The notes under the pieces were generated by a model. It was not told the DNA's origin, ran no database searches, and saw nothing but the letters and a program-made list of their open reading frames with translations. Of a stretch of 64,000 nucleotides of DNA, positions 8,435 to 26,330 are shown piece by piece (positions within the stretch are counted from its first letter, which is position 1; each line of letters starts with the position of its first letter). This DNA comes from Sulfuricellaceae bacterium (GTDB taxonomy: Bacteria; Pseudomonadota; Gammaproteobacteria; Burkholderiales; Sulfuricellaceae). Where the stretch lies: contig JAUYFQ010000054.1 in assembly GCA_030690895.1 (NCBI GenBank), positions 1-64,000 of the forward strand, read 5' to 3'. The position numbers were made by a program, and so were the translations under genes.

Positions 8435-11400
8435 ATGAAAATCAGGGATCTTTTCGTCAAACCCATCGATCGCCCAATCAATGGCGTGATCAAGGCCGAC
8501 CAGCGCGACGCCGAGAGTGTCTGGCAGGAGCTTGACGAATACGTCGTCACCAAGCAGCTCACCGAATATTTCCGGCGTTTCTTCGATGCTTTCCTGGCTG
8601 CTGCAGACAACCCCAACGATCCGGTGCTTTCCACCCGAATGGGCGTTTGGGTATCTGGCTTCTTCGGCTGCGGTAAATCTCACTTCATCAAGATCCTGTC
8701 CTACCTGCTGGAAAACATCGAGGCGACCAATCCGGAAAATGGTCAGCCCAAGCGTGCAGCCGAATTCTTCGACGCGAACAAAATCAAGGACGCCATGCTA
8801 TTGGCTGACGTCCACCGCGCCATCAAGGGCAGCTCCGACGTCATTCTGTTCAATATCGACGCAAAAGCCGACAGCAAGTCCGACCGCGACGTCATTCTTC
8901 AGGTCTTCCTGCGCGTCTTCAACGAAAAGCTGGGTTACTCCGGCGATTCCCCGCATATCGCCGAGATGGAGCGTCACCTCGTATCCAAGGGTGCCTACGA
9001 CACCTTCAAAATCGCCTTCCAGGAAAAGAACGGTTCCTCATGGGAACAAGAGCGAGACGCCGTCGATTTCCTGCGCGACGATGTGGTGCATGCCTTGTCC
9101 AAGGCGCTCAACATGACCGAGGAGTCCGCCAGCCGCTGGTTCGACAAGGCTCGCGACGACTACCGCATCAATATCGAGAGTTTCGCCAAGCTGATCCGCG
9201 AATATCTGGATACCAAGCCTGCCGGGCATCGAATCATTTTCCTGGTGGACGAGGTGGGCCAGTTCATCGGCGACAACACCCAGCTCATGCTCACCCTGCA
9301 AACCATCACCGAGCAGTTGGGCACCCTCTGCCAAGGGCGGGCCTGGGTCATCGTCACCAGCCAGGAAGACATCGATGCCGCCATCGGCGAGGCCAACAAG
9401 GCCAAGTCACAGGACTTCTCCAAGATTCAGGGGCGCTTTCATACCCGCCTGTCGCTGGCCAGTTCCAACACTGACGATGTCATCGGGGAGCGTCTCCTCG
9501 CCAAGACCGAGGCTGCCCACGTCGAACTGCGGGATTGTTTCGTCCAGAAAGGCGACATTATCAACAACCAGCTCGCCTTCGTCGGCAATTCGGTTTCGAT
9601 GCGCAGCTATAAGGATGCGGCGGAATTTGTTGCCTACTACCCGTTCGCGCCATATCAGTTCCAGCTCCTGCAGAAGGTGTTCGAATCCATCCGCAAGGTG
9701 GGCGCCACCGGTAAGCACCTGTCCAAGGGCGAACGTTCCCTGCTGGATGCCTTCCAGTCGGCGGCCAAATGCAATGCCGATCGTGGCACCGAAGCCATGG
9801 TGCCGCTCTACGATTTTTATCCGTCCATCGAGAGTTTCATCGACACCAGCGCCAAGCGCTCCATCGACGATGCGCCAGAAAATCCGGCATTGGAACCCTA
9901 TGACATCCTGCTGCTGAAAGGCCTGTTCCTGATCCGCTATATCCCGGATATTGTCCGGCCCAGCGTCGATAACCTGGCCACGCTCTTTCTGGATGAGATC
10001 GATGCCGACAAACTGGCACTGAAGCGCAAGATCCAGGAAAGCCTCACCCGCCTGGAACACCAGCGCCTGGTAAACCGCAATGGCGATCTCTGGTTCTTCC
10101 TCACCAACGAGGAACGCGACGTCGCCCGCGAGATCGGCCACGTGGAAATCTCTTCCGCTGAAAAATCCCGCCTGCTGTGCGAGCTGATCTATGACGACAT
10201 CCTCGGCGGCCAGACCAAGGTGCGCCACAAGGACACCAAGGCAGATTACGAATTTAACCGCCTGCTCGATGGAGCACCCTGGAAACAGGCCAATCATCAG
10301 CTTACCCTGGAAATCGCCACGCCTCTGGGCGACGACTATGAAGGCTTGAGCGAAGCCAAGTGCATCCTGCGCAGTGCTGATCGTGGGCTGATTCGCCTGG
10401 CCGAGGGTGAGCGGCTGGATATAGAGCTCACCCTCTACCAGCAGATAGAGAAATACATCGACAGCCCCAAGGCCAGCAGTTCTGCCACGCCGTCCATCAA
10501 ACGCATCCTCCTGGATCGCAAGGACGAAAACCGTCAACGCCGCAGCCGCCTGGTGGAACAGTTGAGCACGCTCATGCTGACGGGCGATTGCTATGTGCTT
10601 GGACAGAAACCCCAGATCAAGGCGGCCAGCCCCACCACGTTGCTGGATGAACTGGTCAACTACCTCATTTCCAACACCTACACCAAGCTGCCCTATCTCA
10701 AGATGCGGCAGGCCGACCCCATTGCCGAGATCAAGGCGATCCTCTCCGCCGACAACATCGGCCAGCACAGCTTCACGCTGGGAGGGGAGGAAGGCAACCC
10801 GCTCGCCCTCAAGGAAGTCCGCGAATATCTCCATCTAGCCGCCAGTCAGAACCGCGTGCTGCTCTCGGACGTGGTGGATCGCTTCACTGGCGTGCCCTGG
10901 GGCTGGAAGCCGGAATGGGAAGTCGTGCTGCTCATCGCTCGCCTGTTCACGACCGGCGAGATCAAGCTCATGTTGGAAGGCTCGGACCTGGACCCCAAGA
11001 GCGCTGTTGACCCTCTCACCAAGTCTGTGCGCTTCAAGCAGGTTTCCATCCTCAAGCGCAAGACGGCGGACGCTGCATCGCTCAAGCGCGCCCGCGACCT
11101 GCACAAGGATTTATTCTCCAAACTGGCGCGGGAAGACGAAGATGGCCTGGTCGCCGATTCCCGTGCCAACCTTGGCGAGTGGCAGGTGGAGCTCAAAGGC
11201 TTTATCCACGCAGCCACCACCAAACACCACCCCGGCAAGGAAACGATTGATCAGGCGCTGAACCGCATCAACAAACAGCTCGCCATCCGCGATCCGTTCG
11301 AGTTCATCGAAGCGCTGCTTGCCGCCAGGGATGACTGGCTGGATACCTCGGAAGACATTCACGATGTCGTCAGCTTCTACAAAACGCAAATCGCCACTTG

Positions 11401-12105: not shown

Positions 12106-12738
12106 ATGAGCACTCAACTTTCATCGCAGGCAAAAGCATCCCCCCTTGCACGACACCTCCGTGCCGGAAAAGTTTATCGCCGCGAAGACCTCGTGCCTTA
12201 TTCCACGAGTGTTGATCGTGAGTTGCAGCAACTGGTTGCAGCAGGTCGGTTGGCCAAGGCTGCGCAAGGGCTTTATTACGCGCCCAGAAAAAGTGTTTTT
12301 GGGGACGCGCCTCCTGCTGAAAATGAAATGTTGGCGGCTTTTCTTAAAGATAAAAATTTTCTCAGTTTTAATCCCAGTGTTTATAACTCGCTACGCTTGG
12401 GCATGACCCAGCTTTACAATAAAACCATCGTTTATAACCACAAGCGGCATGGCAAATTTCGCCTTGGTAATCGCGAGTTTGATTTCCGCGTCAAGCATCG
12501 ATTTCCTCTGCCCAATCAAGTGAGCAGTGAATACCTGTTGGTCGATATGCTCAACAACTTTGATGAACTGGCAGAAGATGAAGATCATGTGTTTGCCATC
12601 GCTCGTCGCAAGCTGCCGCAGTTTGATGCGAAAAAGCTGCAAAATGCTTTGCAGGAATACGGCTCTGCCGCGACCCGTCGCCTGTTGAAAAAGTGGTTGA
12701 AAGAATTGGATGTCGCTCAAGCCGGGACGGTTAAATGA
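12106..12738 (+). CDS. AbiEi-type antitoxin / DUF6088 winged-helix protein
   Basis: 210 aa. The N-terminal winged-helix part (about residues 10-65: RAGKVYRREDL, LQQLVAAGRLAKAAQGLYYAP) is typical of AbiEi-like and DUF6088 proteins, which repress their own operon and counter the AbiEii nucleotidyltransferase. The stop overlaps the toxin start (ATGA at 12735-12738). The pair interrupts the BREX operon between brxC and pglX. Both genes are more AT-rich than brxC, and they have their own promoter-like sequence, so they look like an acquired cassette. Confidence 0.82.
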   Translation: MSTQLSSQAKASPLARHLRAGKVYRREDLVPYSTSVDRELQQLVAAGRLAKAAQGLYYAPRKSVFGDAPPAENEMLAAFLKDKNFLSFNPSVYNSLRLGMTQLYNKTIVYNHKRHGKFRLGNREFDFRVKHRFPLPNQVSSEYLLVDMLNNFDELAEDEDHVFAIARRKLPQFDAKKLQNALQEYGSAATRRLLKKWLKELDVAQAGTVK

Positions 12739-13685
12739 AGACGCCCGGTTTCCTGCATGAACATGATGGCTTTCTGGTTCTCATCGAGCAGATTGCAGAC
12801 GCACAGAACATTGCGCCACCACTGATTGAAAAAGATTATTGGCTAATGCATTGCCTGTGGGGGCTGCAACAACAAGGCTGGAAATTTGAATTAAAGGGCG
12901 GCACTTCGTTATCCAAAGGCTATCAGTTAATCCACCGCTTTTCGGAAGACATTGATATTCGCTTCGATCCGCCCGCCGAGCTGGGCGTTAAGTCTGGAAA
13001 AAACCACGACAAACCCGCTCACCAGGCATCACGCCGTGACTTTTTCGATTGGTTGGCCAATCAGATAAAGATTCCTGGACTGAAATCCGTCACGCGCGAC
13101 ACCGACTACGATGATGCCAAATATCGCAACTGCGGCATCTTGCTCGGTTACCCTATACTGACTCGCTCTTTGCATGGCGTTAAAGATGGCATCCTGCTTG
13201 AAGTGGGCTTTGACGACACTGCCCCAAATACACCCTGCACCATCTCATCATGGGCAGTGGATGCCGCCTTAAAAGCGAAAGTGGCGATTATTGACAATCG
13301 TGCAGTGGATGTCGCTTGCTACAGCCCGGCTTATACCTTTGTAGAAAAGCTGCAAACCGTCTCGACCAAGTTTCGTATGCAGCAGGAAGCCAATGCGTTT
13401 CCCAAAAACTTCATGCGCCATTATTACGATCTGTATTGCCTGCTCGATAGCCCTGATGTACTGAATTTTATCGGCACACCAACTTATCACGCCCGCAAAA
13501 TAGAGCGCTTCCGTGGCGGGGACAACCTCGACATCGCCAATAACGAAGCCTTTCTGCTTTCCGATCCCAAGGTGCGCAGTCTGTACGAAACCAAATATCG
13601 CGAAACCGCCTCGCTGTATTACACCGGCCAAATCCCGTTCACCGAAATTCTCGCCCGTATCCAGCAGCATATCGAGCAGCTATAA
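12735..13685 (+). CDS. AbiEii/AbiGii-type nucleotidyltransferase toxin
   Basis: 316 aa. The nucleotidyltransferase signature is GGTSLSKGY (residues 55-63) with the metal-binding pair in SEDIDI (D72, D74). A third acidic strand is expected near residues 160-165 (LLEVGFDD). AbiEii toxins transfer nucleotides to tRNA or other targets and cause growth arrest or abortive infection. The gene is coupled to the upstream antitoxin by a 4-base overlap and stops 5 bases before pglX, so BREX transcription could run through it. All key residues appear intact. Confidence 0.88.
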   Translation: MKTPGFLHEHDGFLVLIEQIADAQNIAPPLIEKDYWLMHCLWGLQQQGWKFELKGGTSLSKGYQLIHRFSEDIDIRFDPPAELGVKSGKNHDKPAHQASRRDFFDWLANQIKIPGLKSVTRDTDYDDAKYRNCGILLGYPILTRSLHGVKDGILLEVGFDDTAPNTPCTISSWAVDAALKAKVAIIDNRAVDVACYSPAYTFVEKLQTVSTKFRMQQEANAFPKNFMRHYYDLYCLLDSPDVLNFIGTPTYHARKIERFRGGDNLDIANNEAFLLSDPKVRSLYETKYRETASLYYTGQIPFTEILARIQQHIEQL

Positions 13686-13690
13686 CCACC

Positions 13691-16600
13691 ATGAACAAAG
13701 CCAAACTCAAGACCTACGCCCCCCAGGCCCGCAAGGACTTCATCGCCGCCGTCACCGCCCGCGCCAACCAGCTTGGCCTGTCTGAGCAAGGCGGCAAGCT
13801 GGAAATCGCCCCAGCGGAAAAGGGCGGCGATGTCGTCATCATCGCCGGCCAGCCCTGGCCCGCCAAGGTGCAAGGCCAGCGCGAACAGCTCATCAAGCGT
13901 ATCCACAAGGACGGCTTCGCGCAGACCATGGAAGCGGTGGCCTACACCTGGTTCAACCGCTTCGCCGCGCTGCGCTTCATGGAGATTCACGATTATCTCG
14001 GCCACGGTCACCGAGCGCTATCCAGCCGGGAAGGGGGCTTGCCGGAAATCCTCGCCCACGCCGCCGACCTTGCCCACAGCGGCAACCTGCCGGGGCTGAA
14101 CGCCGCCAAAGTCACCGAACTCAAGCTCGCCGGCAACAAGGATGGCGAGCTCTACAAAATGTTGCTGGTCGCCCAGTGCAATGCGCTTTCCAAATCCATG
14201 CCCTTCCTCTTCGAGCACATCGACGACGAAACCGAACTGCTGCTGCCGGATAACCTGCTGCGCACCGATTCCATCATCGCCAAACTGGTGGCCGCCATCC
14301 CCGAGGAAGACTGGCAGCAGGTGGAGATCATCGGCTGGCTATACCAGTTCTACATCAGCGAAAAAAAGGACGAAGTGATCGGCAAGGTGGTCAAGAGCGA
14401 GGACATTCCCGCCGCCACCCAGCTCTTCACCCCCAACTGGATCGTGCAATACCTGGTGCAGAACAGTGTCGGTCGCCTGTGGTTGATGGCCAACCCGGAC
14501 TCCACGCTGAAAAGCCAGTGGCCGTATTACATCGAACCTGCCGAGCAAACGACCGAAGTTCAGGCCCAACTCGACGCCCTCATCCAGACCCGCATGGACG
14601 AGGATGGCGGCAGCCTTAACCCCGAAACCATCACCGTGCTCGACCCCGCCTGCGGCTCCGGCCACATCCTGGTGGAAGCTTACGAAGTCCTCAAAGCCAT
14701 CTACCTGGAACGTGGCTACCAGCCACGTGCCATTCCTCGCCTGATTCTGGAAAAGAACCTCTACGGTCTCGACATCGACGACCGTGCCGCACAATTGGCG
14801 GGCTTCGCCCTACTAATGAAAGCCCGCGCCGAGGACAGGCGGTTGTTCGAAACCCCGCCCAAACTAAACGTATTGGCCTTGCAGGAGAGCAAGGGGTTAA
14901 ACGCCGATGAAAGCGTTCAGGCACTCAACACAGTTCGTGCTGCGCTTGTCGAAGCACGCCTCATCCGCTTGCTGATTGACACCTTCGCCCATGCTAAGAC
15001 TTTTGGTTCGCTGATACAGATTCCGCAAGAACTGAATGCAGAACTGGCGACAATAACCGAGGTTTTGCAGCAGGCCACCCAGAGCGGCGACCTCTACGCC
15101 CAAGCTGCGGCGCAGGATCTGTTGCCGCTGGTGGGGCAGGCTATGGTGCTGGGAATGCAATTCGATGCGGTCGTGGCGAATCCGCCGTATATGGGCGGTA
15201 AATATCTTACTCCGCTGCTTAAGAACCACCTGAAAGATAACTACAAGGGCTTCGAGAAAGACCTGTTCTCAGCCTTCATGATTCGGGATTTAACACTGAC
15301 CAAAGAGTGCGGCCAGCTTGGTTTTATGTCGCCGTTCGTCTGGATGTTCATTTCGTCATACGAAGAGTTGCGGCAGCACTTTATTGACAACGCCACTCTA
15401 ACGTCGTTAGTGCAGCTTGAATACTCCGGGTTTGATGGAGCGACGGTTCCAATATGCACCTTTACGTTAGGCAAGGCTCATGTTTCTGGCTTCACCGGCT
15501 CTTACATTCGCCTGTCCGATTTTCGTGGTGCGGATCAGCAAGGGCCGAAAACGCTGGAGGCGATTCAAGATCCGAAATGTGGTTGGTTTTTCAAAACCAG
15601 GCCTGATGATTTCAAGAAAGTTCCGGGGAGTCCAGTCGCTTACTGGCTCACATCAAGAATATTCGACGTATTCGCCAAGTCCAAAAAGTTAGGAGATATC
15701 GGCGACGCAAGAATGGGATTGGCAACTGGAAATAATGATAAGTATGTTCGTCTTTGGTTTGAATGTGATTATCAAAAAATTGGCTTTGGTAAATCAACCC
15801 GTGGTGAGGCTAAGGCAAGTGGCTGTCGCTGGTTTCCGTATTGTAAAGGAGGCGCTTACAGGAAATGGTATGGGAACAACGAACACGTAGTTGATTGGCT
15901 AAACGATGGTTACGAACTACAAACCACAAAGCATCCAAGTGGGAGAATCTGGGCTCACAATTTCAATCTTGAACACATTTTTAGAGATTCTATAACTTGG
16001 TCAGATATCACGTCGGGCTCCCTCTCTGTAAGATTTAATTCCAACGGATTTCTTTTCGATGGATCCGGAACATCAGCCTTTTTTCACTCTAATGAAGAGA
16101 AGTTAGCGACGGTTGGGTTGTTAAATTCAACTTTTGCTAACGAAATGGCAAAAGTTTTGAATCCAACGTTCCATTTCCAATCTGGTGATTTCCGGAATCT
16201 CCCCTATACCTCTGCACTGGTAAATAAAAATTACATCGAAATGGTTGTCGCTGCTATAGATATAGCAAAGCAGGATTGGGATTCATTTGAAACCTCATGG
16301 GACTTTCCAATATTTCCTTGGTTGACGACTGATGATTCCATTTCCACTGCTTGGAAGGATTGGAATGACAAATGTTATGAACGACACACTCGATTAAAAA
16401 AACTAGAAACAGAAAACAATCTCCTCTTGATCGAAGCCTATGGCTTACAAGACGAGCTCTCCTATGAAGTCCCCGAAGACCAGATCACTCTCGTCTGTGC
16501 CGACCGCGAGAAGGACTGCCAGCGCCTGATCTCCTACGCCATCGGTTGCATTATGGGCCGATACAGCCTGGATGAACCCGGCCTGATCTACGCCCACGCC

Positions 16601-17260
16601 GGTAACATCGGCTTCGACCCCACCCGCTACCAGACCTTCCCCGCCGACGCCGACGGTATCGTGCCCCTTACCGACGAACTCTGGTTCGAGGACGATGCTG
16701 CCAACCGCGTTCACGAATTCCTGCTGGCGGTGTGGGGTGCCGAGACATTGGACGAAAACATGGCCTGGCTAGCGGAAAGCCTGGGCAAGAAGGGCAACGA
16801 AACTCCGGAAGAAACCATTCGCCGCTACCTCGCCAGCAGCTTCTTCAAAAATCACTTGCAAACCTATAAGAAGCGCCCGATCTACTGGCTTTTCTCCAGT
16901 GGCAAACAAGGTGCCTTCCAAGCGCTGGTCTATCTGCACCGCTACCACGAAGGCACCTTGGCCAGGATGCGCTCCGAATACGTCGTGCCACTCACCGGCA
17001 AGATCCAGTCACGCATCGAGATGCTGACCAAAGACGCCGAAGCCGCCACCTCCACCGCCGCCCGTAACAAGCTCAACAAGGAAATCGAAGGGCTGCGCAA
17101 GAAACACGTCGAGCTGCTGTCCTACGACGAAAAACTCCGCCACTACGCCGACATGCGTATCCAGCTCGATCTGGATGACGGGGTGAAGGTGAATTATGGT
17201 AAGTTTGGCGATCTGTTGGCCGAGGTGAAGGCCGTGACTGGCGGGAAGGATGACGAATGA
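13691..17260 (+). CDS. pglX: BREX adenine-specific DNA methyltransferase PglX
   Basis: 1189 aa. Class I N6-adenine methylase that marks host DNA for BREX self-recognition and is also needed for exclusion. The SAM-binding motif DPACGSGH starts at residue 318 and the catalytic NPPY is at 497-500, the order of gamma-type methylases. Residues ~530-915 (about 15300-16440) form the presumed target-recognition part and are clearly richer in A+T than either flank, suggesting replacement by recombination. The stop overlaps the start of an ATPase gene (ATGA at 17257-17260). A diverged second copy of its last codons lies at 19155-19281. The methylated motif cannot be read from the sequence. Confidence 0.93.
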   Translation: MNKAKLKTYAPQARKDFIAAVTARANQLGLSEQGGKLEIAPAEKGGDVVIIAGQPWPAKVQGQREQLIKRIHKDGFAQTMEAVAYTWFNRFAALRFMEIHDYLGHGHRALSSREGGLPEILAHAADLAHSGNLPGLNAAKVTELKLAGNKDGELYKMLLVAQCNALSKSMPFLFEHIDDETELLLPDNLLRTDSIIAKLVAAIPEEDWQQVEIIGWLYQFYISEKKDEVIGKVVKSEDIPAATQLFTPNWIVQYLVQNSVGRLWLMANPDSTLKSQWPYYIEPAEQTTEVQAQLDALIQTRMDEDGGSLNPETITVLDPACGSGHILVEAYEVLKAIYLERGYQPRAIPRLILEKNLYGLDIDDRAAQLAGFALLMKARAEDRRLFETPPKLNVLALQESKGLNADESVQALNTVRAALVEARLIRLLIDTFAHAKTFGSLIQIPQELNAELATITEVLQQATQSGDLYAQAAAQDLLPLVGQAMVLGMQFDAVVANPPYMGGKYLTPLLKNHLKDNYKGFEKDLFSAFMIRDLTLTKECGQLGFMSPFVWMFISSYEELRQHFIDNATLTSLVQLEYSGFDGATVPICTFTLGKAHVSGFTGSYIRLSDFRGADQQGPKTLEAIQDPKCGWFFKTRPDDFKKVPGSPVAYWLTSRIFDVFAKSKKLGDIGDARMGLATGNNDKYVRLWFECDYQKIGFGKSTRGEAKASGCRWFPYCKGGAYRKWYGNNEHVVDWLNDGYELQTTKHPSGRIWAHNFNLEHIFRDSITWSDITSGSLSVRFNSNGFLFDGSGTSAFFHSNEEKLATVGLLNSTFANEMAKVLNPTFHFQSGDFRNLPYTSALVNKNYIEMVVAAIDIAKQDWDSFETSWDFPIFPWLTTDDSISTAWKDWNDKCYERHTRLKKLETENNLLLIEAYGLQDELSYEVPEDQITLVCADREKDCQRLISYAIGCIMGRYSLDEPGLIYAHAGNIGFDPTRYQTFPADADGIVPLTDELWFEDDAANRVHEFLLAVWGAETLDENMAWLAESLGKKGNETPEETIRRYLASSFFKNHLQTYKKRPIYWLFSSGKQGAFQALVYLHRYHEGTLARMRSEYVVPLTGKIQSRIEMLTKDAEAATSTAARNKLNKEIEGLRKKHVELLSYDEKLRHYADMRIQLDLDDGVKVNYGKFGDLLAEVKAVTGGKDDE

Positions 17261-18330
17261 AGATTCAGACACTGCAATTTGGCGAGGTGGGACCTCTACT
17301 AAACCGGCGAATTGATTTCACCGACGATTGGAGTGGCGAGGTCGGTGCCCGCATCTTGTTTTCTGGCCCCAACGGTTGCGGCAAGTCGACCGTGCTGCGC
17401 GCCGTTGCGATGCTGTGGGAGGCAACAGGGCATTGGCTTGATCACCGGAAAACACTTCCCAGATCCAACCCCGTGCGTGAATGGCTGCAGCGGTGGGGAG
17501 GCGTGGCGGTGGTTTTGGTGGATACCGGTTTAACAGGTTCAGAAAACCGGGCTGTGGGTCTGATCTTTGGCGATACCGATTGGTGTGAAGCCCAGATGGC
17601 CGAGAGAACCGATGTTTTGTGGCTGGGTGAAAGCGTGGCTCGCACGGGCAAGCCCGGCAACCCAAAGAGAGAGCTTTATGTTCCGCAGGGTGAGTGGCTG
17701 CAGCATTGGTCCGACGCGCGAAAGAAAATGATTTTGAGCTTCGAGCCCACAACACTTTCCAATGTGATTTTCATGGATGCCGAGGAGCGGCGCTGGGTGG
17801 CGCCCAAACGCAACGTGGGTGAGCACATTGCCGAGCAGCCGGCGCTGCGCTGGTCTCCTCGCTATATTGCTACCGAGGATTGGAGAGGGCAGCTGGAAGC
17901 GTCCCTGATCAATTTGAAGGTGACCCAGCCCAAGCGATTTTTCCGTGTCTTGGAAGAGTTAAATCTGTTCCTGACAGGCAAGGAAATTGAGTCTGACATC
18001 AAGCCCGGCGAGAACCGACTCAGGGTCAAACTCAAGGGCCTGCGAGGGCAGTACCACAATCTGGACGAATTGAGTGCCGGCGAGCACCAAGTGCTGATCA
18101 TCTTGTATCTGATTGCACGATGGGCAGAGAAAGGCTGCCTTGTGCTGATTGATGAGCCGGACCTGTATCTCCATCCTTCGCTCATCAGCGGCTTGTTGTC
18201 GCGAATTGAAAAACTGGTTGATGAACAGGGCGGACAACTGCTGATTACTTCGCACATTCCTGATGTTTGGAACCGGTTTGAAAGTACCGGACGCCGCATT
18301 GATTTGGGAGGTGAGTGTGAGCAAGGCTGA
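17257..18330 (+). CDS. AriA-like ABC/AAA-type ATPase (PARIS-like module, first pair)
   Basis: 357 aa SMC/OLD-like ATPase. Walker A is GPNGCGKS (37-44), the signature LSAGEHQ (272-278), Walker B LVLIDEPD (295-302) with the following LYLHP, and the switch histidine in TSH (331-333). Its start overlaps the pglX stop, and its own end overlaps the downstream TOPRIM/DUF4435 gene. ATPase + DUF4435 is the composition of PARIS, in which AriA senses phage anti-restriction proteins and releases the AriB nuclease. AriA proteins I know of are longer, so this could be a PARIS relative rather than PARIS proper. Translational coupling to pglX suggests function linked to BREX status (inference). Confidence 0.72.
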   Translation: MKIQTLQFGEVGPLLNRRIDFTDDWSGEVGARILFSGPNGCGKSTVLRAVAMLWEATGHWLDHRKTLPRSNPVREWLQRWGGVAVVLVDTGLTGSENRAVGLIFGDTDWCEAQMAERTDVLWLGESVARTGKPGNPKRELYVPQGEWLQHWSDARKKMILSFEPTTLSNVIFMDAEERRWVAPKRNVGEHIAEQPALRWSPRYIATEDWRGQLEASLINLKVTQPKRFFRVLEELNLFLTGKEIESDIKPGENRLRVKLKGLRGQYHNLDELSAGEHQVLIILYLIARWAEKGCLVLIDEPDLYLHPSLISGLLSRIEKLVDEQGGQLLITSHIPDVWNRFESTGRRIDLGGECEQG

Positions 18331-19132
18331 ACAACGCATCAGTAAAATCCGGGATACCCAGATCGGTGCTACTGCGAAGAAGGTTTTGTTGGTCGAGGGC
18401 AGCGATGATGTGAGTGCCTTTCGGCAACTGCTGAATCGTCGAGTCCCCGACTGGGAAAGCCGGTGGGCACTGGCTGAGGCGGGCAACAAGAGGCAGGCAC
18501 TTGATATGGCACCGCTTGTACTCGATTGGCTGGTATTGGTGGATCGCGATGAATGGTCGGCCAATGAGGTTAAGGAGTTCCAACAGCAACACGCCAACCT
18601 CTTTGTGTTGCCGCGATTCTGTCTGGAGAGCTACCTGGTTGATCCGGCAGAACTGTGGGAGGCGCTACCACCCAAACAACAGGAAAAAATTCCCACCGGT
18701 GCTTCAGGAATTGAGACGGAGGTGCTGGCCAGCCTGGCCGACTGGAGGCGCCACGCCGCGCTCTGGCATGTAATCAACCCGCTTTGGTCAGGCCTGCGGG
18801 CATTGGGGTTCAAAGAAGGGTTGCTGCAAACCCAGAAGATTCCGAATGACGCTGAGTTGGAGCGCACGTTAAAAAGCTGGTCTGAGTTTGTGGATCACAA
18901 GCGAATATTGGATGAAGTCCATGTTGCAATCGGAAACATGAATGCCCAGACAGCCACTGATTTCCTGCACCTTAGCTTGTATGCCAAGGATTTCTATCCG
19001 CAGGTTGTCCACCCGGCACTTGATCGATTGCTGGGGCGAAAATCAGAGGCTGAACGCCGTATCGCGCTTTTCAGAACACTACCTATTCCTGCTGATATCG
19101 ACCCATTGTGGAAGCGGATGGGCTTGGTTTGA
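18317..19132 (+). CDS. DUF4435 TOPRIM-like protein, AriB-like effector of the first pair
   Basis: 271 aa from the GTG at 18317, chosen because GGGAGG lies at 18307-18312; the frame is open further upstream. TOPRIM-type acidic residues are visible: E27 in LLVEGSDD, D76 and D78 in LVDRDEW, and E104 in PRFCLESYL, as in DUF4435. In PARIS the DUF4435 protein is a toxic nuclease (tRNA cleavage is reported for one) held by the ATPase. The start lies inside the 3' end of the ATPase gene (14-base overlap), so the two are co-translated. It is followed 22 bases later by the pglX 3' remnant. Confidence 0.75.
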   Translation: MSKAEQRISKIRDTQIGATAKKVLLVEGSDDVSAFRQLLNRRVPDWESRWALAEAGNKRQALDMAPLVLDWLVLVDRDEWSANEVKEFQQQHANLFVLPRFCLESYLVDPAELWEALPPKQQEKIPTGASGIETEVLASLADWRRHAALWHVINPLWSGLRALGFKEGLLQTQKIPNDAELERTLKSWSEFVDHKRILDEVHVAIGNMNAQTATDFLHLSLYAKDFYPQVVHPALDRLLGRKSEAERRIALFRTLPIPADIDPLWKRMGLV

Positions 19133-19154
19133 TCAAGGCGTTTCAATCAAACAT

Positions 19155-19281
19155 GAAAAACTCCATTACGCTGAATATACGCATCCAGCTCGATCTGGAT
19201 GACGGGGTAAAGGTGAATTACGGCAAGTTTGGGGATTTGCTTGCAGAGGTGAAGGCGGTGACAGGTGGGGCGGAGGAATAA
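19155..19281 (+). pseudogene. Remnant of the 3' end of a second, diverged pglX allele
   Basis: From CGC at 19180 to the TAA at 19279-19281 the frame reads 30 codons identical in amino acids to the PglX C-terminus (RIQLDLDDGVKVNYG ... AVTGG), then AEE instead of KDDE. It differs from pglX at 12 of 90 nucleotides, all synonymous. Weaker similarity with small indels extends left to GAAAAACTCC at 19155. There is no start codon or ribosome site, so it is not expressed as a protein. The synonymous-only divergence shows it evolved as the end of a working pglX before being cut off. It marks a recombination junction between the two ATPase/TOPRIM pairs. Confidence 0.92.
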
Positions 19282-19307
19282 CATGGTCAAGGATTGGAGG
19301 GCATACG

Positions 19308-20468
19308 ATGCTTAAGTCGCTAGAAATAAGAAATTTCAGGTCATTAGAGAATTTTCAGGTCGCCAAACTTGGCAGGGTTAACCTGATCGTCGGCAAGAAT
19401 AATTCAGGCAAGAGCTCTGTGTTGGAGGCATTGCGGATTTATGCAGGCAATGCCCAGCGTGGGTTGCTGGAAATGATTGCGGCAGAACATGATGAGAAAT
19501 ATCGGCAGAAGGACACCGAGCGTGCCGAGGCAGATCAGCCGCTCCCGTTTCAGGATTTTTTCACGGGCCGCATGTTTCCAGAGAATGGCGAGAACGTAAT
19601 ACATATTGGAAGCGCAACGGCAATCCAGGATGTGTTGCGCATTCAGCACGTGTTTCTGGTTGAAACGGAAGAGGCAGTGACGGATTTGACAGGGGAAACA
19701 AGCATCCGTGTTCGTCGTCGGCCCGTTCCAAAATCCGAAATGCCAGATTTACTCGGTGAAGTTAATCACGCGTTTCTGATCAACAAGGGGGAGAAGGCAT
19801 TTCCCCCTCTGATTCTGGATGCCATTTCTCCGCGTTTCCGGCCATCTCCAGTTGATCAGGCGAGTGCTGTTCCGTGCAGCTTCATTCCGACTCAATTTGT
19901 TTCACTGGATGAGTTGGCGGACGAATGGGACAAGATCGTCTTCACCGAGCATGAAGAGATTGTCAGGCAAGCCATGCGCATCATTGCCCCCGAGTTTGAA
20001 AACCTGACTTTTGTGCGTAATGAGGATGGTCGTCCGGCTTATCGTGCAAACTTTCAGCGTAGCGCCAAGGTCAAGATGTCTGACATACCCAGGCCTGTCC
20101 CCCTGAATAGCTTGGGGGATGGCATGTTGCGAGTGCTGCAACTAGCTCTAAAGATATTTCCAGCCAAGGGCGGTTTTCTCCTGATTGATGAGTTTGAAAA
20201 TGGGCTGCATTACAGCGTAATGGAAAAAGTCTGGGCGCTGTTGTTTGACATGGCCGAGAAGCTGGATATTCAGGTCTTTGCGACGACGCATAGCTGGGAT
20301 TGCATTGAGAGCTTCGCAAAAACAGCAATTGCCCGGCAGGATGTTGAAGGCGTGCTGTTCCGTGTAGGTAAGAGCGTTAAGGTTAGCAATCGGGGTCGAG
20401 TGATGGCAACCGTCTTTGACGAGCAGGCGCTCTATAACATTACGCAGACTGATGTGGAGGTTCGGTAA
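19308..20468 (+). CDS. AAA_15/OLD-type ATPase (second ATPase/TOPRIM pair)
   Basis: 386 aa. Begins MLKSLEIRNFRSLENF, the usual start of OLD/RecF-like ATPases. Walker A is GKNNSGKS (29-36). A signature-like LGDGMLRVLQL, Walker B GGFLLIDEFENGLHY, and a switch histidine in ATTHSWD follow. GGAGGG at 19296-19301 is the ribosome site. The next gene starts at its stop (TAATG). It differs in length and sequence from the first-pair ATPase, so it is not a tandem duplicate. ATPase + TOPRIM pairs of this kind occur in defence islands; the mechanism here is unknown. Confidence 0.82.
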   Translation: MLKSLEIRNFRSLENFQVAKLGRVNLIVGKNNSGKSSVLEALRIYAGNAQRGLLEMIAAEHDEKYRQKDTERAEADQPLPFQDFFTGRMFPENGENVIHIGSATAIQDVLRIQHVFLVETEEAVTDLTGETSIRVRRRPVPKSEMPDLLGEVNHAFLINKGEKAFPPLILDAISPRFRPSPVDQASAVPCSFIPTQFVSLDELADEWDKIVFTEHEEIVRQAMRIIAPEFENLTFVRNEDGRPAYRANFQRSAKVKMSDIPRPVPLNSLGDGMLRVLQLALKIFPAKGGFLLIDEFENGLHYSVMEKVWALLFDMAEKLDIQVFATTHSWDCIESFAKTAIARQDVEGVLFRVGKSVKVSNRGRVMATVFDEQALYNITQTDVEVR

Positions 20469-21145
20469 TGGCGACGACAAGCATTGACCGTATTCTGCTG
20501 GTTGAGGGCGAGGCTGATCGTGCCTTCTTCGAACAGATTTGCAGAGTTGTTGGCTTGAATACGAGCGTCAAGGTTGCGCTACCAAAGGATTTGGCGGGGT
20601 CGCATAATTCCAAGGAGGGCGTATTCAACCATCTACCTGTCTTGCTTGCTCAATTGGCGGATGGTCAGATCACCCGCCTGGCTGTGGTTGTGGACGCAGA
20701 TAGCGAGGCAAACGGCGGGGGATATGAGCTGACCATCGGCAGGGTGGAGAAAATCGTCGCACCTTATGGATTTGCTTTGGCTGCGCACACAGTGAGCGGA
20801 ATAGTTTTTCAACATAATGACGGCTTGGCGGATTTCGGCCTTTGGGTAATGCCGAATAATGCTGATGAAGGCATGTTGGAAGATTGGATAAAACAGAGCA
20901 TCCATCCCGATGAACAAGGACTGTTTGCCCACGCAGAAGCCGTCGTGGCAGCGCTGCCACAGCCCCAAAAATTCAAACCGATTCGCCGCAGCAAAGCCGA
21001 GGTGGCTACTTGGCTAGCCTGGCAAAAACAGCCCGGGCACGGCCTTTATCGGGCTGTCGAAGATGGGCTAATTGACACCATCGGCATTCACTATAAGAAC
21101 TTGGTCGCATGGCTGGGACATATTTATAGACCATCGCAAGGTTAA
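20468..21145 (+). CDS. TOPRIM/DUF3226-like protein (second pair partner)
   Basis: 225 aa. TOPRIM features: ILLVEGEADRAFF near the N-terminus (conserved Glu) and LAVVVDADSE (DxD) about 65 residues later, as in DUF3226/OLD TOPRIM nucleases. The C-terminal segment with HGLYRAVEDGLIDT is not one I recognise. The start overlaps the ATPase stop by one base (TAATG), so the two form a coupled unit. By analogy with Gabija, OLD and PARIS, this is the likely nuclease and the ATPase its sensor (inference). It ends 126 bases before the VbhA-like gene, with nothing recognised in between. Confidence 0.75.
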   Translation: MATTSIDRILLVEGEADRAFFEQICRVVGLNTSVKVALPKDLAGSHNSKEGVFNHLPVLLAQLADGQITRLAVVVDADSEANGGGYELTIGRVEKIVAPYGFALAAHTVSGIVFQHNDGLADFGLWVMPNNADEGMLEDWIKQSIHPDEQGLFAHAEAVVAALPQPQKFKPIRRSKAEVATWLAWQKQPGHGLYRAVEDGLIDTIGIHYKNLVAWLGHIYRPSQG

Positions 21146-21271
21146 AACATCCGTCTTTCCAGACATGAAAAGGGTTTCTGATCTTTATCAGCAAGTGAGC
21201 GAGAAAAAGCCGAAAGTTTGAATGGTTTGTTGCTTGTTTGTTCTGTAAGTTTTGTAAATGAGAGGCGTGTC

Positions 21272-21463
21272 ATGAAAAAAATCAGCAAACAAGTTGCACG
21301 CAGCAAAACCGTCGAAAATGTGTTGGCCTCATTGCGTATCGAGAAGCTGGTTCCCGGCGATTATGTCATCAAGGGCATGAATGCATGCGTGTCCGGCAAG
21401 AATACGACTGCCAATGTGCTGCAAGAGGTAATACGTCACCATGTCACGATACGATGGGGCTGA
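21272..21463 (+). CDS. VbhA-type antitoxin of a Fic toxin (orphaned)
   Basis: 63 aa from the ATG at 21272; a longer upstream start lacks a ribosome site. The segment KTVENVLASLRIEKLVPGD resembles the inhibitory helix of VbhA-like antitoxins, whose motif is S/T-x-x-x-E-G/N. Here it reads S-L-R-I-E-K, so the last conserved position is changed. The 3' end overlaps by 23 bases the start of a collapsed Fic gene (21441-21581), the usual antitoxin-then-toxin overlap. With the toxin gone, the antitoxin is probably relaxed and may be non-functional. Confidence 0.68.
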   Translation: MKKISKQVARSKTVENVLASLRIEKLVPGDYVIKGMNACVSGKNTTANVLQEVIRHHVTIRWG

Positions 21464-21581
21464 CTCCTGCGTTTATCCTGGTACGGAAGCTGAGATGTAT
21501 GCGGTGATGATTGCCAGTTTTAATGGCGACGAAAAACCATTGGCGGCACTGTTGGACCGGATTACAGCGATCATTGAGTGA
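21441..21581 (+). pseudogene. Internally deleted Fic toxin gene (N- and C-terminal ends joined)
   Basis: A 46-codon frame, MSRYDGADSCVYPGTEAEM ... ALLDRITAIIE. The first ~17 residues match the N-terminus of Fic-family toxins (YDGAD..YPGT). The rest (MIASFNGDEKPLAALLDRI) matches their extreme C-terminus (SF.GD..PLA.L). Everything between, including the HPFx(D/E)GNGRxxR catalytic loop, is missing. The joint lies near 21485-21495 and keeps the frame. It starts inside the VbhA-like gene. I infer a single in-frame deletion of about 0.5 kb that disarmed the toxin. Confidence 0.72.
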
Positions 21582-21669
21582 GAGTTCTATGCCCACGGCT
21601 CCCCGTAAATGGAAATCAGAAAATTATCGTGCACATATATGGAACTGAAAAACGTGAGAGAAATCCGGA

Positions 21670-24279
21670 TTGAGTAACCAACGCATTGTCGAATCACTGA
21701 GTGCATTGTTTGCCACACAGCGGATTGTGTTCTGGCACGACGCGGAAGGTGAATTCAGCTCAGTGGTCGGCACCTTGCCGCTGGGCGATTCCCAGCTTAT
21801 TCGTCTGGATGAGATGCCCGCGCTAAAGGTCAAGCTGGAACTTGAACAGGGCGACAGTTCCGGCAAGTGGCTTCTCTATAGCCCCACGCCGGAACCCGAT
21901 CCTGCTCAGGACTGGCTGTTGGACATCCGCTTGCGGGCCAAATCGTTCCGTGCGGATTCCACTTCGATCCTGCTGGATGATCTTGGGCTGGCATCTCAAA
22001 CACTGCGCCAACATTTGAAGGAACGGACCAAGTTTCTACGCGCCAAGGAGCGTGTGGAACGTTTGAAACGACTGGTCGTGCCACTGGACACCGCCGAAGA
22101 TCTGGACCGCAAGATGCTGGCTGTATTGGCCCGCGCCGATCAGCCTGAATTCTTCGCCATTCTGTTGCGTCTATTCGGGGCGCTAGTGGCGGATGGTGAG
22201 GTTGATCTGAATGCGCAGTCTAAAGGCTGGCAAGACATTGTAACCAATGACCTTGCCCCCGCCTTCTGGATGCTGACAAAACAGGAAATGGGTTACGAGG
22301 AGGCTGAGCCTTCGTTGCGTGACCTGTTGTTACGCATTCTGGTGACGGATTTCTGCCGCTCGCTGCTCGGGGATGCGCCTGAGCCCTTGAAACATTTCAT
22401 GCTGCCGGATCGGACTCTGGCCGCGAACGCGGCAGTGTTCGCCGCCCGCTGGCGCTCCGACCTGAGCCATTACACCAGCTACAACACCATTTCAGCGGCG
22501 GTGGACGAAGACCTCAATCTGTCTTCTGTACTGGCGGGTTTGTCAGCGGAGGATCTGGCGGAATCCATGACCTTCGAGGATTCCGAACGGCGCATCGTCA
22601 AGGATCTGAAGGATCGCATCATCGCCGCTGCCGGGGCGAACATGGATAGCGTGTTTACCCTAATTGCCAGACGGCGCGACGGACATTGGGCAAGCCGCGT
22701 CCTGGCGCAAGGCAATGAGGGCACTAGGGCATTGGCAGCCAGTTATGATGCGCTGGAGGCTGCGGCACATTTTTTCGAACTGAAATCCAGATACAGTGCC
22801 GGGTTCAGCTTTGCCAGCGCCGAGGCTGGATTAGAGAATTACCAGGCTGAGTTGTTCCGTCTGGATCAACTCTACCGACGCTTTAACCATGCCACCGAAG
22901 CGGTGGAGCCGATGGGCTGGTCGGTGCTGCATGATTTGCGCGAGCGCATCGAAGCCGCTTATTCCGGTTGGTTTGTTCCGCAACTGGGTTCGGCCTGGGC
23001 CAAGGTCTTGGAGGGCGAAGATGGCCTGCTTTCTTCCTGGCGAGTTTCGGGCATGGCGAACCAGCAGGACTTTTTTGTCCGCCAAGCGCTGCCCTTGTTC
23101 GAGAGCGGAACCAAACGCTTGTTCGTGGTGATCTCAGATGCCTTCCGCTATGAAGTGGCGGAAGAACTGGTGCAGGAGTTCAACAGCAAGAACCGCTTCA
23201 AGGCTTCCCTCGGCAGCCAGCTTGGCGTGTTGCCGAGTTATACCGCTTTAGGCATGGCGGCGCTTCTTCCCCACGAGACGTTGGCCTACAAGCTCAACAG
23301 TAACCTGGATGTGATGGCGGACGGGCAAACCGTTGCCACTATCGAGCAGCGGAGTACCCACCTCAGTCGGTTTGGCGGGGTGGCGATCAAAGCCGAAGAT
23401 TTACTGGCGTTAGGAAAAGACAAGGGGCGCGACTTCGTCCGGGATCGCAAGCTGGTTTATGTCTATCACGACCGGATTGATCTGATTGGCGATAAGCAGG
23501 GTTCGGAAACCAAGACATTCGAGGCGGCTGCCGATACGCTGACTGAGCTGTCACAGTTGGTTGGGTTCATCATCAACAGCCTGAATGGCTCGACGGTGCT
23601 GGTGACGGCGGATCATGGTTTTCTCTACCAGGAGTCCCCACTGGAAGAGGCCGACAAGTCTGCTCTTGATGAAAAACCCGTTGGCACGCTCAGGGCGAAA
23701 AAGCGTTATCTGTTGGGGCAAGGCATTGGGGGGAGCAGCAAGGCGTGGTCCGGCAATACCGCACTCACCGCCGGCACGGATCCTGACGGCAGCCTGGATT
23801 TTTGGGTGCCAAAGGCTGCTTCCCGTTTCCACTTTGCCGGAGGAGCGCGCTTTGTTCATGGCAGCGCCATGCCGCAGGAGATTGTTGTGCCAGTGATCAC
23901 GGTGCGCGTGAGCGAGTCCGAGAATGCTAAAACCAGAATAGTTGAATTCAGCGTGCTGGGCGCTTCCAACAAGGTAGTGACCAATACCCAACGGTTCGAA
24001 TTCATCCAGATCGAACCCGTATCGGAGCGGGTGTTGCCACGCACGGTGCTGGTCGGACTGCGGGATGGCGAGAAGCTTATCAGTGACGAGCAGAAGCTGA
24101 CCTTTGACAGCGCCTCACAACTGCTTGATGAAAGAAAGCGGTCTATTTTCCTGACGGTACTTTCCGGCTCCTACGATCGCAATAAAGATTACTTCCTGAC
24201 TGCCAGAGATGCGGCCACCAAGGTTGAAGTGCTGCGCATCGCATTGAAGGTGGATCTCGCCTTCACTAATGATTTCTGA
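21670..24279 (+). CDS. pglZ: BREX phosphatase-like protein PglZ (type A)
   Basis: 869 aa, starting at TTG 21670. PglZ belongs to the alkaline phosphatase superfamily and is essential for BREX; purified homologues show metal-dependent phosphodiesterase activity. Metal-site segments are visible: VISDAFRYE (D490) and TADHGFLY (D648, H649). The N-terminus (IVFWHDAEGEF) and C-terminal beta-rich region fit the family. The start codon is unusual but the only one that fits the conserved N-terminus. It lies 88 bases after the Fic remnant, and brxL follows after 8 bases. Confidence 0.93.
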   Translation: MSNQRIVESLSALFATQRIVFWHDAEGEFSSVVGTLPLGDSQLIRLDEMPALKVKLELEQGDSSGKWLLYSPTPEPDPAQDWLLDIRLRAKSFRADSTSILLDDLGLASQTLRQHLKERTKFLRAKERVERLKRLVVPLDTAEDLDRKMLAVLARADQPEFFAILLRLFGALVADGEVDLNAQSKGWQDIVTNDLAPAFWMLTKQEMGYEEAEPSLRDLLLRILVTDFCRSLLGDAPEPLKHFMLPDRTLAANAAVFAARWRSDLSHYTSYNTISAAVDEDLNLSSVLAGLSAEDLAESMTFEDSERRIVKDLKDRIIAAAGANMDSVFTLIARRRDGHWASRVLAQGNEGTRALAASYDALEAAAHFFELKSRYSAGFSFASAEAGLENYQAELFRLDQLYRRFNHATEAVEPMGWSVLHDLRERIEAAYSGWFVPQLGSAWAKVLEGEDGLLSSWRVSGMANQQDFFVRQALPLFESGTKRLFVVISDAFRYEVAEELVQEFNSKNRFKASLGSQLGVLPSYTALGMAALLPHETLAYKLNSNLDVMADGQTVATIEQRSTHLSRFGGVAIKAEDLLALGKDKGRDFVRDRKLVYVYHDRIDLIGDKQGSETKTFEAAADTLTELSQLVGFIINSLNGSTVLVTADHGFLYQESPLEEADKSALDEKPVGTLRAKKRYLLGQGIGGSSKAWSGNTALTAGTDPDGSLDFWVPKAASRFHFAGGARFVHGSAMPQEIVVPVITVRVSESENAKTRIVEFSVLGASNKVVTNTQRFEFIQIEPVSERVLPRTVLVGLRDGEKLISDEQKLTFDSASQLLDERKRSIFLTVLSGSYDRNKDYFLTARDAATKVEVLRIALKVDLAFTNDF

Positions 24280-24287
24280 GGCTGCCC

Positions 24288-26330
24288 ATGAGCGAAACCC
24301 TAGCCCCTGACAACACCGAAAAAAGCCTGGACATGCTCCTGAATGAGCATTTTTCCGGCAAGGTCGTGCGCAAGGACCTGACCAAGTTGATCAAGGAAGG
24401 AGCGAACGTACCAGTCTACGTACTGGAATACCTTCTCGGGATGTATTGCGCCTCGAATGATGAGGCCACGATCCAGTCAGGGCTGATCAATGTAAAGCGT
24501 ATTCTGGCAGAGAATTACGTCCGCCCGGATGAGGCCGAGAAGGTTAAATCGAAGATCCGGGAAAGTGGGAGCTACAAGGTCATCGACAAGGTGACGGTTA
24601 AGCTCAACGAAAAGCGGGATGTGTATGAAGCGCTACTATCCAATCTCGGGGTGAAAAACGCCGAGATTTCCGACACTTTTGTACGCCAATTCGAAAAACT
24701 GCTGGTGGGCGGAATCTGGTGCATTGTGACGGTACAGTACCGCTTTGAGGAAAACCAGAAGGGCTCCCCCTTTACCGTGACCGATCTCAAGCCGATCCAG
24801 ATGCCCAATATGGACATGGCCGGGCTGTTTGAAGCCAGACGGGCATTTACCAACGAAGAATGGATCGATGCACTGATCCGTTCCACGGGTATGGAGCCTT
24901 CCTGCCTCAAGGAGCGGGTGAAATGGCATCTGCTGGCGCGCATGATTCCACTGGTGGAGAATAATTACAACTTCTGCGAGCTGGGCCCACGGGGCACCGG
25001 CAAGAGCCACATTTACAAGGAGATCAGCCCCAACAGCATTCTGATCTCGGGCGGTCAAACCACGGTGGCCAACCTGTTTTACAACATGAGCGCCCGCAAG
25101 GTGGGCCTGGTCGGGTTGTGGGATACCGTGGCGTTTGATGAAGTGGCGGGCATCAATTTCAAGGATCACGACGGCGTCCAGATCATGAAGGACTATATGG
25201 CCTCCGGCTCATTCAGCCGAGGACGCGAATCGATCAACGCCAATGCTTCGATGGTGTTCATCGGCAATATCAACCAGAGCGTGGAATCGCTGGTCAAGAC
25301 CTCTCACCTGTTGGCGCCATTCCCTGAGGTGATGATTGATTCCGCCTTCTTTGATCGTTTTCACGCCTACGTGCCTGGCTGGGAAATTCCGAAGATGCGA
25401 CCGGAATTTTTCACCAACCAGTATGGATTGATCGTCGATTATTTGGCCGAATACCTGCGCGAGATGCGCAAGTGGAACTTCGCCGACGCCATAGATAAAT
25501 GGTTCAAGCTGGGAAATAACCTCAATCAGCGTGACACCATTGCTGTGCGGCGTACCGTATCTGGCTTGCTGAAACTCATCAGCCCTCAGGGGGAATACGA
25601 CAAGGAGATCGTGCGTAAATGCTTGGAGTACTCCTTGGAAGTCCGTCGCCGTATTAAGGAACAATTGAAGAAGATCGGCGGCATGGAGTTTTACGATGTC
25701 CATTTCAGCTACATCGATCTGGAAGACAAGCAAGAGCGCTTCATCACCGCGCCTGAGCAGTCTGGCGGGGCGTTGATACCTGAAGGGCAGTTGAATCCTG
25801 GCACGCTTCACACCATTAGTGTCGGAACGGCTGAAATACCTGGCACTTACCGCCTGGAAATTCAATCCATCGCGGGTTCAGGAAAGGTGTCTGTATCAGG
25901 CGGCGCACCACGCGATGCCGTGAAAGTAGCGTTCGATTATTTCAAGGCCAATGCGTCGAGGGTCAGCGCGTCCATCAAACCCGACGAGCATGACTTCCAC
26001 CTGCAGTTGATGGAGCTACAGCACACCGGTTCGCCTGATGCTCTTACGCTCACCAGCTTCATCGCCCTATGCTCGGCTGCGCTCACAAAACCGATTCAAT
26101 CCCAGATGGTAGTGATGGGGGACATGAGTTTGGGCGGCACGATCGTCCAAGTGCGCAATCTGGCCGAAAGCCTGCAAGTGGCCTTCGATGCCGGCGCCAA
26201 GCGAATTCTGTTACCCACGTCGAGCGTGACAGACATCCCGACAGTGCCAGGGGAATTATTTGCAAAATTCCAGACCAGCTTTTATTCGGATCCGGTGGAT
26301 GCTGTGTTTAAGGCGCTGGGGGTGGAGTAA
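24288..26330 (+). CDS. brxL: BREX Lon-like AAA+ protein BrxL
   Basis: 680 aa. The hallmark of type 1 BREX: an AAA+ ring that binds DNA, with a C-terminal Lon-like fold. Walker A is GPRGTGKS (233-240), with a Walker B-like LWDTVAFDEVAG near 280-290. The C-terminus SLGGTIVQVRNLAE ... AKRILLPTSS is the Lon-like domain. The N-terminus MLNEHFSGKVVRKDLTKLIKEG is typical. It ends the BREX operon. About 100 bases downstream lies a frameshifted fragment, and the next intact gene (clpB) is on the other strand. Confidence 0.93.
   Translation: MSETLAPDNTEKSLDMLLNEHFSGKVVRKDLTKLIKEGANVPVYVLEYLLGMYCASNDEATIQSGLINVKRILAENYVRPDEAEKVKSKIRESGSYKVIDKVTVKLNEKRDVYEALLSNLGVKNAEISDTFVRQFEKLLVGGIWCIVTVQYRFEENQKGSPFTVTDLKPIQMPNMDMAGLFEARRAFTNEEWIDALIRSTGMEPSCLKERVKWHLLARMIPLVENNYNFCELGPRGTGKSHIYKEISPNSILISGGQTTVANLFYNMSARKVGLVGLWDTVAFDEVAGINFKDHDGVQIMKDYMASGSFSRGRESINANASMVFIGNINQSVESLVKTSHLLAPFPEVMIDSAFFDRFHAYVPGWEIPKMRPEFFTNQYGLIVDYLAEYLREMRKWNFADAIDKWFKLGNNLNQRDTIAVRRTVSGLLKLISPQGEYDKEIVRKCLEYSLEVRRRIKEQLKKIGGMEFYDVHFSYIDLEDKQERFITAPEQSGGALIPEGQLNPGTLHTISVGTAEIPGTYRLEIQSIAGSGKVSVSGGAPRDAVKVAFDYFKANASRVSASIKPDEHDFHLQLMELQHTGSPDALTLTSFIALCSAALTKPIQSQMVVMGDMSLGGTIVQVRNLAESLQVAFDAGAKRILLPTSSVTDIPTVPGELFAKFQTSFYSDPVDAVFKALGVE

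Follow-up and report, generated by a model that had tools for sequence, protein, structure and literature searches.

An orphan pglX 3′ end between two cassettes of a type I BREX locus, probably the flank of an earlier cargo slot

A type I BREX locus in a Sulfuricellaceae bacterium carries, between two two-gene cassettes, the 3′ end of a second pglX gene, which lies in the reading frame of the intact pglX upstream. Throughout, the window is the whole stretch of DNA that was analysed, 64,000 nucleotides in length. The same architecture recurs with other cassettes at other loci, several of the cassette families found behind orphan PglX ends also stand directly behind pglX in BREX loci, and in at least one case the joint between stacked cassettes leads from the beginning of a pglZ into the end of a pglX. 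We consider it probable that the remnant is the decaying flank of a pglX-pglZ cargo slot, left behind when slots join or when their contents move. Orphan pglX ends of this kind probably mark defence cassettes that were once inside a BREX locus, because similar pglX leftovers occur in unrelated microbes.

The genes brxA, brxB, brxC, pglX, pglZ and brxL are all present and in order in the window, with an AbiE pair between brxC and pglX and with AriA/AriB, the pglX-end repeat and the PDC-M38 pair following one another between pglX and pglZ (Table 1). The first of the two cassettes places an AriA ATPase beside AriB, and is called PARIS-like since both PADLOC matches are partial-length; PARIS is a defence system set off by anti-restriction proteins such as Ocr. 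Its AriA ATG overlaps the pglX stop codon, and AriA relatives are found downstream of pglX in L058 (directly) and in L039 (at 1.1 kb); the true start of AriB is probably later than the coordinate in Table 1. The second cassette consists of the M38A ATPase followed by M38B, both near full-length matches. A 524-nt gap separates M38B from pglZ (21146-21669) and holds two small frames, 21271-21462 (63 codons) and 21441-21581 (46 codons), for which Pfam returned nothing above cut-off; they may be the remains of yet another cargo pair, and the first resembles VbhA-type antitoxins. The AbiEi/AbiEii pair occupies 12106-13685, and as genomes G724, G497 and G502 share such a pair at the matching position, the interval between brxC and pglX is a second cargo slot. 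The window's own genome also contains a second, divergent BREX locus (L047, contig C62; pglX 35% identical), whose pglX-pglZ slot holds an ATPase gene plus others.

Table 1. Features around the two cassettes, with positions in the window and the evidence for each.
Feature	Position	Strand	Evidence
pglX, complete methyltransferase/specificity gene of type I BREX	13691..17260	+	PADLOC PglX E=0; Pfam Eco57I
Conserved 3′ end of pglX, the copy repeated by the remnant	17156..17260	+	Repeat pairing, codon alignment
PARIS-like AriA ATPase	17257..18330	+	PADLOC AriAB/AriA; AriAB 4e-23
PARIS-like AriB	18263..19132	+	PADLOC AriB 2.5e-16; no Pfam match
Junction bases	19133..19152	+	pglZ-start origin tested, unsupported (P=0.35)
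Remnant of a second pglX 3′ end	19153..19281	+	Repeat, alignment, profile scan, codon comparison
Spacer with GGAGG motif	19282..19307	+	Aligns with the spacer preceding two archaeal M38A genes
PDC-M38A, AAA_15/AAA_21 ATPase	19308..20468	+	PADLOC 3.5e-149; Pfam
PDC-M38B, DUF3226 protein	20468..21145	+	PADLOC 6.9e-83; Pfam DUF3226 5.9e-42
pglZ, right border of the cargo slot	21670..24279	+	Pfam PglZ 6.6e-65
brxL	24288..26330	+	Pfam BrxL_ATPase and BrxL_N

A repeat search pairs 17153-17253 with 19177-19277 (101 nt, 84%), and in codon register 17156 corresponds to 19180, with the remnant stretch 19180-19281 in frame with pglX. Codons 1-30 (RIQLDLDDGVKVNYGKFGDLLAEVKAVTGG) specify the same protein in both copies (17156-17260 and 19180-19281), although 11 of the 30 codons differ through 12 nucleotide differences, every one of them synonymous; the tails then part, to KDDE-stop in pglX and AEE-stop in the remnant. 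The first-pass annotation had described this repeat at 19180-19281 with the same 30 residues, 12 synonymous differences and unlike tails, all of which is real; its pglX-side start, put at 17158, moves to 17156 in the codon alignment. With 24% of random single changes in the 30-codon stretch expected to be synonymous, an outcome of 12/12 under neutral accumulation has a chance of about 5e-8, and nearly all of the divergence is therefore older than the truncation. Homology extends upstream to about 19153 (GAAAAACTCC... common to both copies), so that the last ~43 codons of a pglX are represented and the catalytic body is absent. Upstream of 19180 a net 2-nt deletion in the remnant breaks the frame in the alignment; the remnant is thus not wholly undecayed, and decay has begun. 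That the remnant is the end of another pglX, diverged under selection, as had been proposed, is upheld by the synonymous-only differences. The companion argument from the lack of amino-acid changes loses some of its force because 24 of 70 columns in the PglX end are invariant in 14/14 aligned proteins. Queried against the window's own genome, the remnant finds three matches, namely itself, its neighbouring pglX and the pglX of the second BREX locus. Among the pglX genes of the loci compared, its DNA over 87 nt is closest to that of G724 (89.7%, 78 nt), followed by G497 (88.5%, 77 nt) and the neighbouring pglX (86.2%, 75 nt); by this nearest-DNA ranking, with its margin of two to three bases, there is a weak indication that the remnant came from another pglX lineage.

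Orphan pglX ends occur in other genomes as well. The remnant peptide, searched in overlapping draws of 398, 399, 18, 48 and 369 genomes, located 27 distinct places, 22 of which fall in longer pglX genes, some of these interrupted by a split, a frameshift or a contig end, and five of which are short orphan ends, in the window, G006, G077, G945 and G815. When a profile of 16 PglX ends was scanned over 22,102 six-frame fragments of longer loci, every match below E=0.1 was either the terminus of a longer pglX gene or an orphan end, the latter at eight loci, and the next match had E=8.2. The eight comprise the five already named (G006 with one scrap in two frames), G502 and two archaea (L016 and L017). 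Orphan matches span 21 to about 62 codons, and this shortness is in part ascertainment because the search used the last 42 codons of pglX and is blind to scraps without them. Within the 19-20 kb surrounding the orphans of G006, G077, G945 and G815 there is no match to brxA/B/C/L, pglZ or the pglX body, and no other BREX genes were matched around the two archaeal orphans, the L017 stretch measuring 4.3 kb. A scan of viral contigs yielded 28 loci. One of them, L100, is a short orphan; another, L076, has about 190 codons of the pglX end running to the end of its contig, with no pglX body in the 3.6 kb upstream, so that longer orphan scraps exist. Four of the viral-contig BREX loci (L096, L097, L098 and L103) have two adjacent pglX genes, the first lying partly inside the stretch examined. 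In E. coli, a DNA search found 398 places in 397 records from 395 genomes, at most two per genome (60 of 397 rows inspected); by this count, in a search that eroded scraps may escape, double pglX ends are rare to the point of near absence. Searches with the pglX end gave 260 places in 258 plasmid records, 60 of them inspected, and five phage records; E. coli plasmid CP088465 (H197), considered as a candidate orphan end, holds most of pglX with frame errors and was rejected.

Other forms of broken or divided pglX were seen along the way. The L017 genome has a shrunken, 117-codon pglX relic with a downstream gene called AlbA-like by its resemblance to the AlbA of L045. In L045 (7944-14968) and L043 (9522-16224), PglX is present in two separate pieces, split near residue 576-632, with an AlbA/HATPase gene plus an AriAB pair between the pieces in L045 and about 3 kb of other sequence in L043. 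This split near the methyltransferase/recognition hinge possibly reflects either a two-subunit PglX or a broken gene.

The families downstream of the orphan ends are M38 (two archaea), HEC-02 (two genomes), a PDC-M25-like pair, a DUF1016 nuclease and RhuM, the last behind the viral-contig orphan L100. HEC-02A/B pairs follow the orphan ends of G006 and G077, and in two BREX loci, those of G117 and G161, the same family comes directly after a pglX that is cut by a contig end; no HEC-02A match was found in the viral contigs. The pair in G945 is 44% identical to the PDC-M25A/B pair directly after pglX in the G502 BREX, and is tied to PDC-M25 only through that identity. In G502, a second, internally deleted PglX end precedes a DUF1016/YhcG nuclease, and a DUF1016 gene follows a complete pglX directly in G724. 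Tandem pglX 3′ ends at further loci, which the first-pass annotation had suggested looking for, are therefore present in G502, and the kind of locus that it proposed to look for, with the cassette directly behind pglX, exists for DUF1016 (complete pglX), PDC-M25 and HEC-02 (contig-cut pglX), while for the M38 pair itself none with an intact pglX was found. Cargo behind orphan ends matches the PADLOC candidate models PDC-M38, PDC-M25, PDC-S02, PDC-S05 and HEC-02, and the PADLOC listings consulted do not mention that a leader derives from pglX or that a cassette has passed through a BREX slot.

For the M38 pair, the evidence comes from archaea. L016 and L017, which were found through M38A and hence independently of the pglX end, encode an M38A 67-69% identical to that of the window; ahead of it, at the same spacing as in the window, come a PglX end that is eroded and a spacer that can be aligned. 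Overall, two of the three close M38A loci carry a pglX end. No intact pglX was found before M38AB at the six loci on genome contigs (three of them close), in 330 genomes of the order (six with an M38A match, the window included) or on plasmids (148 records; 30 rows and two regions examined). Four of the five other order-level genomes with M38A were examined; these M38A proteins are 34-64% identical, and the loci showed neither a BREX match nor a pglX end, one of the four beginning at a contig start that leaves its upstream side unreadable. The viral contigs gave no M38A match; a small Acinetobacter plasmid (L031) bears the M38 pair near tet(39). A ten-protein M38A tree groups the window, the two archaea and Thiomargarita (99/97), with a pglX end in the window and both archaea and none in Thiomargarita; L018, the sister of the window in this tree (87/87, not a starred branch), is without one. 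This distribution needs two changes on the tree, and 129 of 500 shuffles are as low. One gain followed by a loss is indistinguishable here from separate events because the M38A tree is so small.

How such leftovers form is best seen at the right-hand border of the slot. Comparison of G117 (inside BREX) with G077 (outside) shows DNA that is alike from within the pglX end, through both cassette borders, to about 30 nt into pglZ, and a pglZ start is retained right of the G077 cassette at 28/30 nt. In G502, the spacer between the cassettes consists of a pglZ start LSIQRNVDSLSAL fused in frame to a pglX end DADMPITLDLDDGVK...AVTGGEGDD; the pglZ start covers 13 codons, with a DNA match at P=0.003-0.006. 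Given this fusion, the G502 join was made between two slots, from within the first pglZ to within the second pglX. To the right of the G945 cassette the match to a pglZ start is weaker, covering 16 nt, and its P of 0.006-0.016 is borderline because seven places were tested. No pglZ start was detected right of M38B in the window (P ~0.3) or the archaea, the values there being 0.29-0.99. In sum, a pglZ start across the joint is evident in two genomes (G077, G502) and borderline in a third (G945), with none detected in the window or the archaea. All of these P values are conservative because the null pool contains the tested loci themselves (L033, L035, L037, L041, L042, L044, L054 and part of the window). 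As a control, 398 genomes were searched with a pglZ start of 60 residues; of the six matches 0/6 were orphan, which settles little because heads as short as those of G077 and G502 are invisible to this query. The first-pass annotation had suggested that sequence near the pglX 3′ end is an anchor for homologous recombination. The G502 join, however, connects two different genes, and since a pglZ start and a pglX end are different sequences the joint probably arose by illegitimate joining; homologous recombination anchored at the pglX 3′ end is possible.

Under the slot-flank reading, the M38 pair would once have lain in a pglX-pglZ slot of type I BREX with a second pglX immediately ahead of it. 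Stacking would then have put the contents of two slots in a row, with the upstream part supplying pglX and the PARIS-like pair at its end, and the downstream part beginning inside the last ~43 codons of the other pglX and carrying the M38 pair towards pglZ. We infer that the join in the window resembled that of G502 and that its pglZ part has since been lost. The join itself would have been non-homologous, with later homologous recombination perhaps helping or spreading the joint, and the leftover would now be functionless and decaying. Weighing against this reading are the failure to find an intact pglX before M38AB in the collections searched, the lack of a detected pglZ start at 19133-19152 or right of M38B, the M38A loci that showed no pglX end (L018 and those of the four order-level genomes), and the rarity of double ends in the E. 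coli search.

A strong form of the anchor idea is that a pglX end, a two-gene cassette and a pglZ start form a single short mobile segment, perhaps circularised by joining pglZ start to pglX end, that re-enters BREX loci by homologous recombination in either, so that stacking leaves exactly one joint. We regard this as unlikely. The left scraps are short (21 to about 62 codons) and the right scraps very short in separate cases, the G502 joint is as circle integration predicts, and the G077 cassette, outside BREX, has kept both flanks on a 19 kb contig that yields no further BREX match. Yet neither a circle nor an empty/filled pair was seen, the search for an empty site in the genus of G945 and G815 covering those two genomes; tight scrap lengths owe something to the last-42-codon search; and L076 is a longer orphan, of ~190 codons. 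G815, congeneric with G945, has flanks 93-94% alike and keeps the scrap, but about 190 bases replace the 2-kb cassette of G945, and since the cassette was lost and the scrap kept, it is no evidence of an insertion step. The replacement (L055, ~10285-10474) has inverted ends GGCTCTTAACGGATTCCTAGG / CCTAGGAATCCGTTAAGAGCC and looks like a small non-coding transposon; G815 also carries a BREX locus elsewhere. It is similarly unlikely that the pglX end and pglZ start serve small defence cassettes as natural homology arms, with which a recombinase-less unit moves between and out of BREX loci, and into archaea, and stacks by a joint of pglZ start to pglX end.

Less probable still is a functional role, in which the PglX-end frame would be kept as a leader for translational coupling to, or regulation of, the ATPase gene behind it. 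In the window, G502, G006 and G945 a small open frame does close immediately ahead of the cassette, with a length of 42 codons from an ATG in the window and of 37 in G502, and the starts of AriA and HEC-02A overlap the pglX stop. Against this, G077 and both archaea have broken or eroded frames, the G815 scrap persists without a cassette, and by eye no clear ribosome-binding site precedes the window ATG at 19153. A misjoining of two related BREX contigs at the pglX end is very improbable, for although the assembly is split into 186 contigs, with contamination estimated at 6.4%, and includes a second BREX locus, the copies are only 84% alike, that second locus is far more distant, and the order of pglX end, spacer and M38A recurs in two archaeal assemblies.

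Compared with known arrangements, the slot-flank reading has partial parallels. Integrase-borne elements generate an att-type duplication of a gene's 3′ end, and the window is similar in that a conserved gene 3′ end is present twice with an insert between. Unlike such elements, the window has just the AriA- and AriB-like genes between its two copies, with no integrase within the duplicated segment, and the copies are inexact at 84%, on which grounds an integrase-made att repeat was rejected; the repeated piece in G502, moreover, differs from one in starting with a pglZ remnant. The type I BREX of Salmonella Typhimurium LT2, as far as it is described in the accessible text, contains an ATPase paired with a DUF4435 gene in the interval from pglX to pglZ, and thus shares with the window an ATPase-plus-partner insert in this slot, but there the insert is single and no second pglX end is described (PMC9009780). 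In Salmonella strain D23580, a PARIS system is reportedly embedded in BREX (PMC11341690). Two structure papers, in the portions available, assign no specific role to the extreme PglX end (PMC11341690, PMC11842806), and one of them places the DNA-contacting residues R1145 and K1152 (E. coli numbering) in the C-terminal domain. The word "remnant" is absent from the main text, as available, of a recent BREX survey (PMC12839542), and no description of pglX-end scars between cassettes was found in the accessible literature, subscription papers being mostly outside its scope.

The assembly of defence islands is mostly inferred from gene order, and the past locations of a cassette could be read from a short, recognisable core-gene fragment that stays with it. 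Such pieces would allow the listing of defence genes that passed through BREX, even where BREX itself is gone, and would permit a direct test of cassette stacking. Annotators should be aware that a small open frame in front of an ATPase gene may be debris of pglX.
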